Assembly: GCA_017626055.1 (NCBI GenBank)
Contig: JAGAJM010000006.1
Span: 248,001-312,000, forward strand
DNA length: 64,000 nucleotides
Origin: a bacterium
GTDB taxonomy: Bacteria; Cyanobacteriota; Vampirovibrionia; Gastranaerophilales; Gastranaerophilaceae
Direction: 5' to 3'
Shown: one piece after another, positions 35,918 through 59,685 of the stretch
Layout of the letters: every line of letters starts with the position of its first letter
Position numbering within the stretch: position 1 is the first letter of the stretch
Program-made: the position numbers and the translations under genes
Notes under the pieces: generated by a model
The model's input: the letters and a program-made list of their open reading frames with translations, nothing else
Databases searched by the model: none
Told to the model about the DNA's origin: nothing

Positions 35918-36439
35918 ATGAAAAAGATAATTTGTTTAATAGCATTAGCGGTAGCTTTTGTTGGGGTACCTTGTTTTGCAGCTCCAGGAGGGCATCACGG
36001 AGGCGGTCATGGTGGTCATCATGGCGGAGGAATGAGAGGTCCTGGTGGACATGGTGGCGGAAGACCAGCGATGCATGGACATATTTCCCATGGGCATAGA
36101 CCACCTATGCATATGGGTGGTGGACACAGCCCTGGAGGTATGCACAGACCTCCTCATCATCACGTAGGTCATCACCATAGACCATTGCCATCACCTATTT
36201 ATCGACCATATATAAGACCTTATTATCCTTATTACTATTCTTCTGTGTATCCATATTACACATCTTATTCTTATTATCCTGCGACAACTTATGTTTATGA
36301 TCCGATAGTAACAACTCCTGTGTCAACTGCAGTAAATGGAGTTGTTGTTACTGATCCATATTTAAAAGTTAATACTGCTGCAAATGTTATCAATGCCGCA
36401 GCAAATGTTGCTACAATGGTTCGCTACTGGACTTGGTGA
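35918..36439 (+). CDS. secreted His/Gly/Pro/Tyr-rich protein
   Basis: 173 residues with a signal peptide (ending CFA). The next 70 residues are dominated by His and Gly (GGHHGGGHGGHHGGG), then His/Pro, then a Tyr/Pro stretch (YYPYYYSSVYPYYTSYSYYP). The C terminus is a small Val/Ala-rich domain. The composition suits binding of copper, nickel or zinc, or surface adhesion, which is inferred. AAAGGAG precedes the ATG. Related in style to the head of the 7441 product. Confidence 0.7.
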   Translation: MKKIICLIALAVAFVGVPCFAAPGGHHGGGHGGHHGGGMRGPGGHGGGRPAMHGHISHGHRPPMHMGGGHSPGGMHRPPHHHVGHHHRPLPSPIYRPYIRPYYPYYYSSVYPYYTSYSYYPATTYVYDPIVTTPVSTAVNGVVVTDPYLKVNTAANVINAAANVATMVRYWTW

Positions 36440-36473: not shown

Positions 36474-36504
36474 TTAAATCTCATCTATTTAGATGAGATT
36501 TTCA
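36474..36504 (+). terminator. terminator after the His-rich gene
   Basis: AAATCTCATCT / AGATGAGATTT with a four-base loop, 35 bases after the stop. Confidence 0.72.
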
Positions 36505-36552
36505 GTGTTTTGCTAAAGAAAAATTTTTACTTGTCGATATAGAGAATATAGA

Positions 36553-36624
36553 TATGGAAAACGAAAGTTTTTCATACCTCCTCCCCAAGTCTGGTAGCCG
36601 TTCTTTTTGAAACGGCTTTTTTTT
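36553..36624 (+). ncRNA. candidate short RNA with CCTCCTCCCC segment
   Basis: About 70 nt. A hairpin GGAAAAC-GAAA-GTTTTTC (36556-36573) is followed by an unpaired stretch holding CCTCCTCCCC (36577-36586) and a terminator hairpin AGCCGTT / AACGGCT with eight T (36596-36624). TATAGA-like -10 boxes lie just upstream, but no clear -35. The CU-rich stretch is complementary to Shine-Dalgarno sequences. An 18-codon frame (ATG at 36554, TGA at 36608) spans the same bases and could be a leader peptide instead; it has no ribosome site. Confidence 0.5.
36596..36624 (+). terminator. terminator of the candidate short RNA
   Basis: AGCCGTT / AACGGCT stem with an eight-base loop and eight T. Confidence 0.88.
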
Positions 36625-36644
36625 ATGTCTAAAATTTATCATAA

Positions 36645-36679
36645 TAAAAAACTCTGAGTTTTTTTACTCAGAGTTTTTA
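36645..36679. terminator. bidirectional terminator after prs
   Basis: AAAAACTCTGAGT / ACTCAGAGTTTTT around a run of T; T runs follow on both strands. prs ends at 36703 on the minus strand. Confidence 0.85.
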
Positions 36680-36702
36680 AATTATATATTTACTATCTAT
36701 CC

Positions 36703-41252: not shown

Positions 41253-41375
41253 TATTTTATACCCCGAATACTTTAATAGGTTGAGAAAGTTTTCATCCTT
41301 TTAAACGATGTTTAAATTATTGAATATTATAGAATAGAAATGTAGAAAAACGAAGTAGAAGAATTGGGTAGGTTA

Positions 41376-42200
41376 ATGGAACAAAGTTTTGATTTTTCTT
41401 CATATAACAGCATAAAGCGTATGTCGGAAGACGAGCTTGTTGCTTTGTGGGAAAAATATCTTGCTGATAAATCAAATAAACAAGCAAGAGATACTTTGAT
41501 AGTTCAATATATTTATCTAGTAAGATATGTAGTTGGACGTGTTAAGGTTTCATTACCTGTGACAATTTCTATTGAAGACATTGCAGGTTATGGTGTAGAA
41601 GGTTTAATTAATGCTATTGAGCGTTTTTCACCTCAAAAAAATACTAGATTTGAAACTTATGCTCTTATTAGAGTTCGTGGTGCAATATTAGATAGAATTC
41701 GTTCTGAAGATTTCTTACCAAGAAGTGTGAGAAAGAAAATAAAAGATATTAAGCAGGCTGCTGAATATCTGAAACAAGAGTTTGGAAGAACTCCTACAAC
41801 TACTGAAATTGCAAATTATTTGGAAATGGATCCAGATAAGGTAAATCAAATCATGTCAGAAGATGTAGTTGTAACTTCAATTTATGAAAAACGTGGTTCA
41901 TCTGAAGATAGTATGGAAATTATTGATACTATTGAAGATTCAAATAAATTAAATCCACAAGAACAAATGGAAGAAAAGAATGTAAAATCAGATTTGCAAC
42001 GAGCATTGCAAAGACTTCCTGAACGTGAAAGAGTTTTAATGGTCTTGTACTATCAAGAAAACATGACAATGAAAGAAATTGGCGAAACTCTATCAATGTC
42101 AGAATCTCGTGTTTGTCAGTTACATGCTCAAGCGATTATGAAACTTAAAAACATTCTTAATGAAAATCGTTCATCACGACTTCAACAAGCTATTGTGTAG
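41376..42200 (+). CDS. FliA/WhiG-like RNA polymerase sigma factor
   Basis: 274 residues from the ATG at 41376 (TAGG upstream). Region 2 includes SIEDIAGYGVEGLINAIERF and FETYALIRVRGAILDRIRSEDFLPRSVR, region 3 reads LKQEFGRTPTTTEIANYL, and region 4 ends MKEIGETLSMSESRVCQLHAQAIMKLK. The VRGAILDRIR segment is typical of the sigma-28/FliA and SigF/WhiG group. Such factors direct RNA polymerase to flagellar, sporulation or stress promoters; no flagellar genes are in the window. No anti-sigma gene is adjacent. Confidence 0.88.
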   Translation: MEQSFDFSSYNSIKRMSEDELVALWEKYLADKSNKQARDTLIVQYIYLVRYVVGRVKVSLPVTISIEDIAGYGVEGLINAIERFSPQKNTRFETYALIRVRGAILDRIRSEDFLPRSVRKKIKDIKQAAEYLKQEFGRTPTTTEIANYLEMDPDKVNQIMSEDVVVTSIYEKRGSSEDSMEIIDTIEDSNKLNPQEQMEEKNVKSDLQRALQRLPERERVLMVLYYQENMTMKEIGETLSMSESRVCQLHAQAIMKLKNILNENRSSRLQQAIV

Positions 42201-55753: not shown

Positions 55754-55790
55754 TAAAAGCATTTAATTGTCAATGAATTAAATGCTTTTA
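55754..55790 (-). terminator. terminator of the 1271-aa gene
   Basis: AAAAGCATTTAATT pairs with AATTAAATGCTTTT around seven bases; it overlaps the stop codon at 55788-55790. Confidence 0.75.
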
Positions 55791-58700
55791 GCCTCTGATA
55801 TTAAAATTGTTTGGGTTATATTTTTTCTTTATAGGTTGACCGATTTTTGCGTGATTAGAACCTAAGTTTAATCCAGTGTCCTCGGCTTGTTCTTCTAGTG
55901 CAGCCATTGTGAATGCTGTTTTCGGAGCTTGTTTGTTGTATTTCATCAACCACTCTTGAGAACCTGGAACAAGAACTTCATCGTTCATTCCGATTGGTGC
56001 GCCTTCCTTAGCTTTTTTGTTAGCTTTAGGGTCAACAATTCTGAATCCTTCTTCAGTGTTGTCGCTTATTCCTGCAAAACTTGTTCCTAGAGATGTAATC
56101 ACTCTGCCATCGTTAAGAATTTTTGTAGTTTCACCAGCTTTGAATTTGGTTTGAGGATTTTCAGTTTGTGGTTCGTCAGCTTTTTTAGTGTTAGGTGTAT
56201 GTTGTTGTGTTTGAGGATTTGTTGCAACTTTTGGTTGTGCAGGTTGGGTTTGTGCAACATTTTGTCCGTTTTGTTGAGCACCTTGAGTTGTCTGAACCTG
56301 AACTTCTGCTTGTTGAGTTTGAGTTGGATTTACGCCATAAGCCTTATTTCTCAATGCTATCAATTTTTCTCTTTCGTCAAGTGGTAAGTATTTTAAGTAA
56401 TTTGCGAAATTAGTTTGAGTCATTGAGTAAATATTTTTTGCTAAATATTCGTAAATAATTTTGTGGTCAATACTATTTAGTGCAGTAATTAAGTTCTTTT
56501 CTAATAGTTCGATGACATCAGAAGCAGGTAGCATATTGATTAATTCGCTTCTAAGTGTTTGGTTAGATGTACGAAGTAGAATTTCTTTGATAACTGCAGT
56601 GTTTCCAGCTTTACTTTTTATGAATGCGCGAACTTCACTTGTAGAACCAGATCTAGCAAGGTTATCAATAAATTTTTGGTGAACTTTTGAACCCAAGTTA
56701 GAAAGTAAGATATCATAAACTTCACTTAATGAAGTTGCATTAGATAACTTTTGAATAATTTGTTCTTTTTTAGTTGGGTTAGCTTGAATGTATTCTTCTA
56801 AAGCTTCGGAAGCTGCGATTTCCTTAAGTTCAGAAATTACTTCATCAGAAAGCTTTAACTCTTGTTTAAGTTCCCATTCTGCGATAGATTCATCGATTTT
56901 TTGTTTAACTTCAGCAACATTTTCTAAAGCAATATCTTTCATTTTTTGATTTGCTTGAGCTTCGTTGTTGATAGCTTGTTCTTTAATTTTTGCAGCATCA
57001 GTATTTGATTTTTGAACTGTTGGGTTAACATTATTTTCAAGAGTAGTCTTTGTTACACCTAAGTTGTTTTGGTTGTTTGATGAAGTATATGTTGGAGCTT
57101 GTTGATGTGTGTTATAAGTATTTTTGTTAGTTACTCCAGAGTTATTTGTACCTGAGTAGTAAGTATTTGAAGCTGATTCAGTATTGTTTCTTGTTTCTTG
57201 AGAAACTTGACCAGTAGTTAGTGCTGTTCGGATAGTTTGTTGAACTTCTGGTGGGTAATTTTGTGCAGCTTGATTTACAATAGAATTGTATTGGTTTCTG
57301 TAACTTTGGTTTTGAATTGAGTCAGCTCCAGCTGCAATACCTTCGAGTATTGCAGGGTTACCCATATCACTTAATCTATCAGCAAGAGCTAATCGATTAT
57401 TATCACTTGTAGATGTTTCTATAATGTTTTCAGCAAAGATTGATAAATCTCCTGCATTAACATCTTTATCTTTGCCCAATAAATCAAATACTTCAGTAGT
57501 TTGATCTATTGAGTTGTACAAGTTCATACCTGTTGCAATTTCTTTAGAGTATTTATCTAGATATCCTTTAGCAGCTATTGCTTGTTCATTAGGGTCTGTT
57601 AACCATTTTGCAACATATTGAGCCACTTTACTTGTTTCGTGGCAATCGCCATGAATATGTCTAAAGTTGCAAGCATCTTCGCCATTTCTAATATTTGCTA
57701 CTTGGTGTAAAATATGTTCTTTACCAAGCTTGAATTTCTTAATTTCTTCTGGTGTGAAACCATCTTTAAGCATAGCAGCTTCAACTTCATTCATGAATTT
57801 TACAGGATCATCAACAGTGGTACTTGCTAGCATCAACTGTCCGTAAAATTCACCTCTTTTATGTTTGCTTTTAATATTTTTTGTAATGGCTGTAATATCT
57901 TCAGCTGTTGTTTCACCTGAGATATTGTATGTTTCTCTGAATTCATAAACATTATTTGTTATTTGAAAACTATCATAGTTAGAGTTTTCGTCATAATCGT
58001 GAGCTTGATTGTGTGATTGAACATGGTGTGCAGCTTGACGTCTGATATGCTCAGGAATAGTTTCATCATTTGCTATTTCACTAAAATATTTTTGTTTCTC
58101 ATCTGGTGTTAAATTATCAAAATCTGGATTTTGATCATAGATCCAATAAGCGAATTCTTTATGTTTTAACTCTCTTTCTTTTTCGCTTCTAAGTGGTGAG
58201 TTTTTAGGTAAAGCAGCAATTTCACTGTTTAATATTTCTATACGTCCTTCAATATTCTTGACTTTATTTTCATCCTTATATGATGAATTGATATATTCAA
58301 TGATGTTACCATCTTTACAATTCTCTAGGGCAACTGCAAGAGTTCCATTAAGTTCTCTTATTGCTAGAGCCTCTAATTTTTCGTCACTCAAATGTGGATG
58401 TGTAGCTTTAATTTTTTCTAGTTCAATATCATAATATTCTTGAAGTTTTTTGTCTATAATTTTTTGTTGTTCATCTTTGGTTAATTTTGTAAAAGATGGA
58501 TCACTCTTTATCAATGCTCGTTTAATGAAGTTTTGATTTTGAAGTATATTCATTGCTTGAGGAGTGAGGACTGCACCTGTCAACTCTTTAAATTGTTCTT
58601 TGATTGCAGTTTGTCCCTTGTCAATTAGAGCTTTTATTTCATTAATGTCTTTATTATTAAGTTCTTGGAGTGAGATATTGTTATGTTTTGCTACCATAAT

Positions 58701-59603
58701 CAAAGAAAAAGCAACTTGGCTAGCAACTTCGTTACTTCCGATTTTGCTCCAACTTTCATCTTTTCCAATTATTTGAGTCAATTCAATAAAATTTTCATTA
58801 AGAACTTTTTGCTTTTCACTATCAGGTAATTGGGCGAATTCTTTATCTGAATCTTCTAAATATTTTTGTAGTGTAACCTGAACTTGCTCAGTTGAAGATA
58901 ATAGATAGTATTCATCAGATATTGTTGTTTTACCATCTTTTGTTTGATAATATTTTTGTGTGTCCATTAACTTGATAGATGCATTATCTTCAGGTTCAGT
59001 ATTTTTTCTGTATATTTCAAGTATTTTTCGCTCATCTTCAGTTAGGCTAGTTTCGTCTAATTGTTCTTTTGTTGCAATTTTTGCAATGATATCATTTATA
59101 TCGGCATTTTCAATGTCGTTGTTAGTGCAATACTTTTCGGCAAGTTGTTCTAATTCAGAGGTGTTAGTATCTTGTGCTTCTGTTGCTTTTGGTTCAGTTT
59201 CAACTTCTGGTGTTTCTAATGATGCAAGTTCTGTACAATGTTCTGCTACAAGTGTTTCAGACTTGAATGTGTGTGCAAGCGTTTCTACTATTTTAGCTTG
59301 CTCCTCAGTAGATAGAGTGTTAAGTGCTTCTGTAAAATATTTAACTAAATTTTCTTCTGATAATTCTGCTAATTCAGGGAATTGTTGTTTTAATAATTCT
59401 AATTTTTGGTCATCAGGACATTTTTTGAACTCTCCAGATTTTATAAATTCAAGCACTTTAGCTTGCTTTTCTTCTGCAGTCATTGTGCCTGTTTTCATAT
59501 CAATAGGTTGGCTAGAAGAAGACGCAGAAGTACTAGCTGCTGGATTATTTCCAGTTGCTTGTACTTGTTCTTGTTGTCTTAGTTTACTTACGTCTAAAGC
59601 CAT
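55788..59603 (-). CDS. very large helical protein of unknown function
   Basis: 1271 residues. No signal peptide or membrane helix. The first 30 residues and a region of about 180 residues near the C terminus are Gln/Asn/Thr-rich and disordered (QTQQAEVQVQTTQGAQQ). The bulk is charged helix, with repeated short motifs of the type LT-x-DE-K/Q-K (LSTEEQAKI, LTKDEQQKI, LTPDEKQKY) spaced along the N-terminal half. One possible cluster (CKDGN, CNFRHIHGDCHETSK) is Cys/His-rich. AGGA precedes the ATG. It is the largest gene in the window and ends in a terminator. Family not recognised; a structural or scaffold role is conceivable. Confidence 0.65.
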   Translation of the reverse strand: MALDVSKLRQQEQVQATGNNPAASTSASSSSQPIDMKTGTMTAEEKQAKVLEFIKSGEFKKCPDDQKLELLKQQFPELAELSEENLVKYFTEALNTLSTEEQAKIVETLAHTFKSETLVAEHCTELASLETPEVETEPKATEAQDTNTSELEQLAEKYCTNNDIENADINDIIAKIATKEQLDETSLTEDERKILEIYRKNTEPEDNASIKLMDTQKYYQTKDGKTTISDEYYLLSSTEQVQVTLQKYLEDSDKEFAQLPDSEKQKVLNENFIELTQIIGKDESWSKIGSNEVASQVAFSLIMVAKHNNISLQELNNKDINEIKALIDKGQTAIKEQFKELTGAVLTPQAMNILQNQNFIKRALIKSDPSFTKLTKDEQQKIIDKKLQEYYDIELEKIKATHPHLSDEKLEALAIRELNGTLAVALENCKDGNIIEYINSSYKDENKVKNIEGRIEILNSEIAALPKNSPLRSEKERELKHKEFAYWIYDQNPDFDNLTPDEKQKYFSEIANDETIPEHIRRQAAHHVQSHNQAHDYDENSNYDSFQITNNVYEFRETYNISGETTAEDITAITKNIKSKHKRGEFYGQLMLASTTVDDPVKFMNEVEAAMLKDGFTPEEIKKFKLGKEHILHQVANIRNGEDACNFRHIHGDCHETSKVAQYVAKWLTDPNEQAIAAKGYLDKYSKEIATGMNLYNSIDQTTEVFDLLGKDKDVNAGDLSIFAENIIETSTSDNNRLALADRLSDMGNPAILEGIAAGADSIQNQSYRNQYNSIVNQAAQNYPPEVQQTIRTALTTGQVSQETRNNTESASNTYYSGTNNSGVTNKNTYNTHQQAPTYTSSNNQNNLGVTKTTLENNVNPTVQKSNTDAAKIKEQAINNEAQANQKMKDIALENVAEVKQKIDESIAEWELKQELKLSDEVISELKEIAASEALEEYIQANPTKKEQIIQKLSNATSLSEVYDILLSNLGSKVHQKFIDNLARSGSTSEVRAFIKSKAGNTAVIKEILLRTSNQTLRSELINMLPASDVIELLEKNLITALNSIDHKIIYEYLAKNIYSMTQTNFANYLKYLPLDEREKLIALRNKAYGVNPTQTQQAEVQVQTTQGAQQNGQNVAQTQPAQPKVATNPQTQQHTPNTKKADEPQTENPQTKFKAGETTKILNDGRVITSLGTSFAGISDNTEEGFRIVDPKANKKAKEGAPIGMNDEVLVPGSQEWLMKYNKQAPKTAFTMAALEEQAEDTGLNLGSNHAKIGQPIKKKYNPNNFNIRG

Positions 59604-59685
59604 AATTGTTCCTAATTAATAGTTCACTGTTCGTAATATCGGCTTTTTTAAATCATGACTTTAATTATTGTTACAATTCTTAACT

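Follow-up and report, generated by a model that had tools for sequence, protein, structure and literature searches.

The window analysed here is the whole 64,000-nt stretch of DNA, taken from a Gastranaerophilaceae genome. Between a gene at 35918-36439 and a convergent downstream gene, which from its sequence we take to be prs, folding and terminator prediction revealed a 5′ hairpin of 10 bp with a GAAA loop (36553-36576, + strand), followed by an intrinsic terminator consisting of a stem-loop and a T tract (36596-36625, + strand; stem within 36596-36617, then the T run). The strand ACCUCCUCCCCAAGUCUGG is predicted to be exposed between the GAAA hairpin and this Rho-independent terminator. The layout proposed in the original prediction, a GAAA-loop hairpin, an unpaired anti-Shine-Dalgarno-like stretch and a terminator, was thus recovered. 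Its description as a compact intergenic unit of about 70 nt held for the hairpins, core and terminator, but the conserved unit exceeds those limits, with a promoter at 36514-36539 and a core that extends to 36600.

The conserved core ACCTCCTCCCCAAGTCTGGTAGCCG (36576-36600, + strand) comprises the anti-Shine-Dalgarno-like CCTCCTCCCC (36577-36586), AAGTCTGGT (36587-36595) and the 5′ arm of the terminator. CCTCCTCCCC is present as a single copy in the window, where shuffled sequences would be expected to contain none, and ACCTCCTCCC was counted once in the 1.87-Mb genome to which the window belongs. A 101-nt stretch folded at -22.2 kcal/mol; 200 shuffles averaged -14.6 (z -2.85), and none of them equalled it. 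With an approximate transcription start at 36546-36550 (+ strand), as judged from the position of the -10 element, the product of this apparently free-standing gene would be roughly 75-80 nt long. A terminator-like hairpin of the upstream gene (36476-36501, + strand) separates that gene from the sRNA; on the other side, an inverted repeat with T runs ending both strands lies between the sRNA and prs (36648-36680) and is probably a bidirectional terminator.

When the whole window was searched with Rfam 15, only a tRNA reached threshold and no such match overlapped the sRNA. The suhB/mmgR model RF00519 scored 17.3 bits over 36563-36632, below its gathering threshold of 41. Membership in a known Rfam 15 family was rejected, with no family at or above its gathering threshold.

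Distribution of the sRNA

A blastn search of 98 relatives with a 141-nt query gave matches with E < 1e-23 in 42 of the 46 genomes of the same genus, the four genomes without a match being 73-91% complete. In other families of the order, the alignable part hardly went beyond the core and terminator and was often just 36576-36600. A covariance search in related genomes had been proposed earlier as a check; a model built from 44 copies and applied to a class sample of 382 genomes (cut-off E <= 0.01) found matches in 292 of them, at least five of which are doubtful. The matches were mainly in Gastranaerophilales and in relatives labelled Vampirovibrio, in agreement with the earlier suggestion that the host might belong to a sister lineage of the cyanobacteria. 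The match in genome G090 of family f12 was counted as false on inspection, and those in G274, G294, G336 and G376 were weak (E 0.005-0.01). In families f9 and f15, the core of the matches is again CCCCAACCUCCUCCCCAAGUC, matched over a shorter length in two of them, and the hairpins and terminators are wholly different; two contigs of the f9 type bear Vampirovibrio titles. Several genomes at the order level had three to five model matches each, and one genome had three tandem copies.

In a phylum sample of 386 genomes, only nine marginal matches were obtained outside the class (E 0.0015-0.009), and these were taken as chance. At least 114 stretches in the species collection match a 25-nt pattern; among the 80 titles listed, the organisms are named as Gastranaerophilales, Melainabacteria, Vampirovibrio, Candidatus Adamsella, cyanobacteria or merely bacteria, and one is labelled Clostridia. 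No copy was found in the viral contigs searched. In 28 genomes without a strong match, the exact sequence CCTCCTCCCC[A/G]A occurred eight times, never in a member-like context and six times within ORF calls of at least 80 aa.

The core is fixed and the hairpins vary

For a comparison across all loci, 186 non-redundant copies were retained by requiring a core with two errors at most and a T-rich tail, a filter by which one or two false copies may have been admitted. A core of 15 nt, of the form ACCUCCUCCCC[A/G]AGUC, was identical in 161 of the 186 copies, so that the conservation of the CU-rich core in relatives, the absence of which had been named as a ground for refutation, was borne out. By comparison, the same copies carry 128 distinct 5′ hairpins, with stems such as TATGAAAAAC/GTTTTTCATA, TAAGACC/GGTCATA, GATAAGGA/TCCTTATC, TACGGG/CCCGTA and CCGGAAA/TTTCCGG; the sequence of the hairpin is thus variable among relatives and its pairing is retained. 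The 34 nt located 5′ of the core had a median folding z of -5.3 against single-base shuffles, with 94% of the copies below -1. Retention of the stem was judged by folding and by listing of the stems rather than by a phylogenetic covariation test, and no covariation score is claimed, because R2 came out as sequence-only. Across the family, the core is predicted to be open to varying degrees (0.45-0.92). In f1 genera outside g1, some of the sRNAs read GUCUA where others have GUCUG. Separately, in three f2 paralogues (L056:1972, L062:1879, L067:2038 (-)) the 5′ hairpin is weak or missing and the core is changed (ATCTCTTCCCC; ATCTCTTCCCCAAGTCTGG); those in L056 and L062 adjoin a normal copy of the sRNA.

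The original prediction had offered as an alternative that the same bases encode an 18-codon leader peptide, and a small mRNA for this product (MENESFSYLLPKSGSRSF) would be a related reading. An ATG-to-TGA frame does span 36554-36610, but no Shine-Dalgarno sequence is visible 5′ of its ATG and, among the 186 copies, 76 have the ATG in frame, 45 have it in another frame and 65 lack it, the frame being shifted by changes in the loop and stem while the core stays constant. The frame counts rule out a conserved reading frame, leaving hardly any credence for the peptide; the codon-like pattern of substitution that would have spoken against an sRNA was likewise not seen.

The promoter of the sRNA

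The -35 and -10 elements upstream of the hairpin (36514-36539, + strand), which the original prediction did not include, have the sequence TAAAGAAA-n11-GTCGATA(T), i.e. TAAAGAAA-n11-GTCGATAT, and match the sigma-28 (FliA) consensus TAAAGTTT-n11-GCCGATAA as given in an excerpt of a published study (PMC2859248). In the family as a whole, a consensus-like promoter TAAAG-n-GCCGATA with a spacing of 15-16 nt lies 5′ of the sRNA, and the commonest -35 octamer is TAAAGTTT itself. The exact form TAAA-n-[N][C/T]CGA was present upstream of 96 of the 186 copies, and dinucleotide shuffles gave 5.55 on average; the spacing was 15 in 73 copies and 16 in 22, and every other spacing from 10 to 20 was represented only 0-7 times. 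A loose form with one mismatch at most was found in 162 of 186 copies vs. 69 in shuffles, and the evaluation was made with the exact form, the loose counts being dropped. The promoter of the sRNA is very probably of the sigma-28 type.

In the host genome, the full promoter pattern gave 64 sites vs. 75 in the reversed control, with no excess, and therefore only the strict form is informative. Among 30 loci examined out of these 64 sites, all six with the strict TAAAG-n-GCCGATA were intergenic, vs. 20 of the 24 looser ones inside ORFs. Another promoter of this type is found in the window at 59637-59663 (- strand) and precedes the gene (55788-59603, - strand) for a 1271-aa protein of no known family. 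Others (L086, L079, L087, L091 and L124) precede proteins of unknown family, among them a 348-aa protein with related MGMSASQARFLCLTARK... proteins and one of 1124 aa, as well as an Amidase_3 protein. The genes behind these promoters may form a non-classical FliA regulon, possibly of export substrates.

The promoter also bears on whether the element could be a cis-acting leader, an attenuator or a 3′-UTR fragment of a neighbouring gene. The gene prs is indeed a frequent neighbour, forming the largest cluster of neighbour genes (38 entries), but clustering of the neighbours gave 172 groups, of which 125 have a single entry, and of 176 downstream genes, 101 are encoded on the opposite strand and 75 on the same strand. 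Moreover, the sRNA has a promoter of its own and the upstream gene its own terminator. As the neighbour genes differ among copies, the sRNA is not the leader of one gene, and a cis-acting role appears very remote. A fixed core, hairpins that change but remain paired, a free position, a promoter and a terminator together support the sRNA reading, and the locus is almost certainly a conserved free-standing sRNA gene, representing a class-wide family absent from Rfam 15.

Co-occurrence with FliA and flagellar-type genes

A sigma factor of the FliA/WhiG family is encoded in the same window (41364-42200, + strand; likely ATG start at 41376), with a TIGR02479 score of 239.2 bits over a cut-off of 189.6, and is presumed to be the activator of the sRNA. 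A conserved, structured RNA gene, a sigma-28-type promoter and the presence of FliA in the genome are what the sequence itself shows. In the class sample, FliA was above the cut-off in 324 of 382 genomes; by a hand tally, the 58 below it comprise 50 of family f8, three of f13, one of f10 and four of f1. All of the 54 genomes outside f1 lack the sRNA, and the four f1 genomes carry the sRNA with FliA below the cut-off, probably due to assembly gaps. In families f10, f11, f12 and f14, FliA is present and no sRNA was detected. The co-occurrence of FliA and the sRNA fits a dependence of the latter on the former, yet it is confounded with phylogeny.

The host genome encodes FliE, FliF, FliH and FlhA. 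A cluster on contig C10 (L117:5846-11739) has the order fliE-fliF-[fliG position]-fliH-flhA, in which the gene at the fliG position matches no FliG Pfam domain. Many of the order-level genomes among G059-G079 have two FliF homologues, one close and one of 22-29% identity, as if two export systems coexisted. According to passages of a survey (PMC4040986), the set of flagellar genes is complete in only three of nine genomes of Gastranaerophilales, and the sRNA provides a handle on the persistence of FliA in gut bacteria for which incomplete flagellar gene sets are reported in that source.

Candidate targets and proposed role

The leaders of fliF and fliA were compared with the core of the sRNA. 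Directly 5′ of the fliF start codon, CAGAC-n3-GGGA forms a candidate site, and CAGAC-n2-7-GGGA is present in 26 of the 29 fliF leaders of the same genus with a placeable start; in the three exceptions (UAGAC, CAGGC and CGGGC), G-U pairing with GUCUG remains possible. Predicted duplexes of the core with all 29 leaders, which come from related genomes and are not independent, ranged from -12.9 to -20.9 kcal/mol (median -17.5), compared to medians of -6.4 for a background of 106 leaders of the host genome, its own fliF included, and of -7.0 for a control set of 79 leaders from the same loci. In the fliA leader, TTGGGTAGG (41364-41372, + strand) is a candidate pairing site, and UUGGG was found at -29 to -11 in 20 of 24 fliA leaders (one of the 24 from f4, and the set again from related genomes) vs. 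2 of 106 background leaders. The fliA duplexes were weaker, with a median of -12.1, and 14 of the 23 reached the tenth percentile of the background or lay below it. The conservation of UUGGG may also have other causes, because the motif shares bases with a possible TTG start and with the Shine-Dalgarno region.

At the order level, fliF leaders with a readable start showed no matching site, about half of the 20 regions having given no reliable start. The fliF site is thus not conserved beyond the genus, and fliF as an ancestral target was not supported. A genome-wide search for GGGGRGGAGGT with two mismatches at most gave 101 sites vs. 137 in the reversed control, with no enrichment. Nearly all of the best complementary sites examined were inside genes, and two of the 30 complementary loci examined (L340 and L341) were just 5′ of the start codon of a long ORF. 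The chances that fliF, fliA or both are real targets appear to be about even.

The explanation that accounts best for these data overall, and which we favour on balance, is that of an sRNA which depends on sigma-28, acts in trans and blocks ribosome sites, with feedback on fliF and fliA. RNA polymerase with FliA would transcribe the sRNA, whose two hairpins would keep ACCUCCUCCCCAAGUCUGG open, and the open core would pair with the ribosome-binding regions of mRNAs and block their translation. We infer the transcription, its dependence on FliA and the blocking of ribosome sites from the features described above. The likeliest targets in this genus would be the fliF and fliA leaders, and, because these are the predicted targets, the result would be a late-to-early negative feedback on the flagellar-type export system.

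A sigma-28-transcribed RNA could instead use its core to bind a partner other than a ribosome site, either a protein or a G-rich sponge RNA. This would fit the AAGUCURGU part of the core, which is about as conserved as the anti-Shine-Dalgarno part, and the lack of genomic enrichment of any target set; also, an intergenic G-rich stretch of the host genome, GGAGGGGACTAAGGGGAGGGGGTC (L317, C20:245732), which may be a sponge or a repeat, is predicted to pair with the core at -28.8 kcal/mol and is a possible partner RNA. Nevertheless, predicted pairing with the core is far better for the leaders of fliF and fliA than for others, and passages on the known CU-rich anti-Shine-Dalgarno cores (PMC10746234) and on the Campylobacter sigma-28 sRNAs (PMC4626219) describe an action on mRNA leaders. 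We regard such a partner as unlikely, and action of the sRNA by pairing at ribosome sites as quite probable.

In a broader and rather doubtful scenario, gut Gastranaerophilales would, after losing swimming flagella, have retained FliA for a repurposed flagellar-type secretion system; FliA would transcribe both putative export substrates and the sRNA, whose silencing of fliF and fliA would complete a feedback loop, and this RNA would be the class-wide counterpart of Yfr1, dating from an early divergence within the phylum.

Comparison with known sRNAs

In the literature searched, no sRNA from Vampirovibrionia/Melainabacteria was described and no report of this RNA was found. Passages of a human-microbiome RNA survey (PMC8040213) make no mention of these taxa, and an unnamed motif in its supplementary tables is possible. 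The sRNA combines a layout similar to that of Yfr1, an anti-Shine-Dalgarno core of the alphaproteobacterial type and a conserved sigma-28 promoter, three features that were not found together in the literature examined.

The resemblance to Yfr-type riboregulators noted in the original prediction applies to the arrangement of hairpin, core and terminator and not to the sequence. Yfr1 is included in the Rfam library, and no Yfr1 appeared among the 28 matches to E = 10. The Yfr1 11-mer ACUCCUCACAC does not occur in the window with one mismatch at most, and TACTCCTCACAC was found in none of the 432 loci searched. Because the 11-mer is absent and there is no model match, membership in Yfr1 was rejected and the sRNA is considered Yfr1-like in build only. 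As described in excerpts of PMC2190773, Yfr1 is an RNA of 54-69 nt with a 5′ hairpin of 6-10 bp, an unpaired CU-rich stretch of 16-20 nt, a terminator and an ultraconserved 11-mer; both RNAs are similar in size, and in both a hairpin lies on either side of an unpaired, ultraconserved CU-rich core, the second hairpin being a terminator with a U tail. They differ in the core (ACUCCUCACAC in Yfr1 vs. ACCUCCUCCCCAAGUCUGG in the gut sRNA) and in the sigma-28-type promoter of the latter. The shared architecture, including the ultraconserved core (PMC2190773, same excerpts), the position of Vampirovibrionia as a sister lineage and the CUCCUC common to both cores would be in keeping with an ortholog of cyanobacterial Yfr1, an ancestral sRNA with a changed core; but the missing 11-mer and Rfam match, and the mere nine marginal matches of our model elsewhere in the phylum, make this quite improbable. 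The sRNA does allow a test of a common origin for the cyanobacterial and melainabacterial core sRNAs.

The motif CCUCCUCCC, predicted to be unpaired in the sRNA of the window with uneven openness across the family, links it to alpha-r14/NfeR1 of alphaproteobacteria. According to passages of PMC10746234, these share an ultraconserved anti-Shine-Dalgarno CCUCCUCCC, variable stems and a translation block by pairing. However, they have three hairpins each exposing CCUCCUCCC, whereas the gut sRNA has one motif between two hairpins; they are also regulated by LsrB/NtrC, belong to another lineage, and the AAGUCURGU extension lies outside the motif as described there.

Regarding the promoter, sRNAs under FliA control that act on the flagellar system are described in E. 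coli (UhpU, MotR, FliX and FlgO), although in excerpts of PMC10578931 these are derived from UTRs and they are likened here by description, not by sequence. Closer are CjNC1 and CjNC4 of Campylobacter, which correspond to CJnc10 and CJnc170 (passages of PMC4626219), the latter being FlmR (excerpt of PMC11187230). Both are free-standing short ncRNAs with a sigma-28 promoter, complementarity of a conserved region to the ribosome sites of earlier flagellar genes and a proposed feedback, but in the same passages of PMC4626219 they are below 50 nt, are described with a terminator stem-loop only and have mostly sigma-54 genes as predicted targets; phylum and core also differ from those of the gut sRNA. 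As far as these sources describe them, CjNC1/CjNC4 are the nearest known sRNAs in promoter and proposed logic, and alpha-r14/NfeR1 the nearest in motif.
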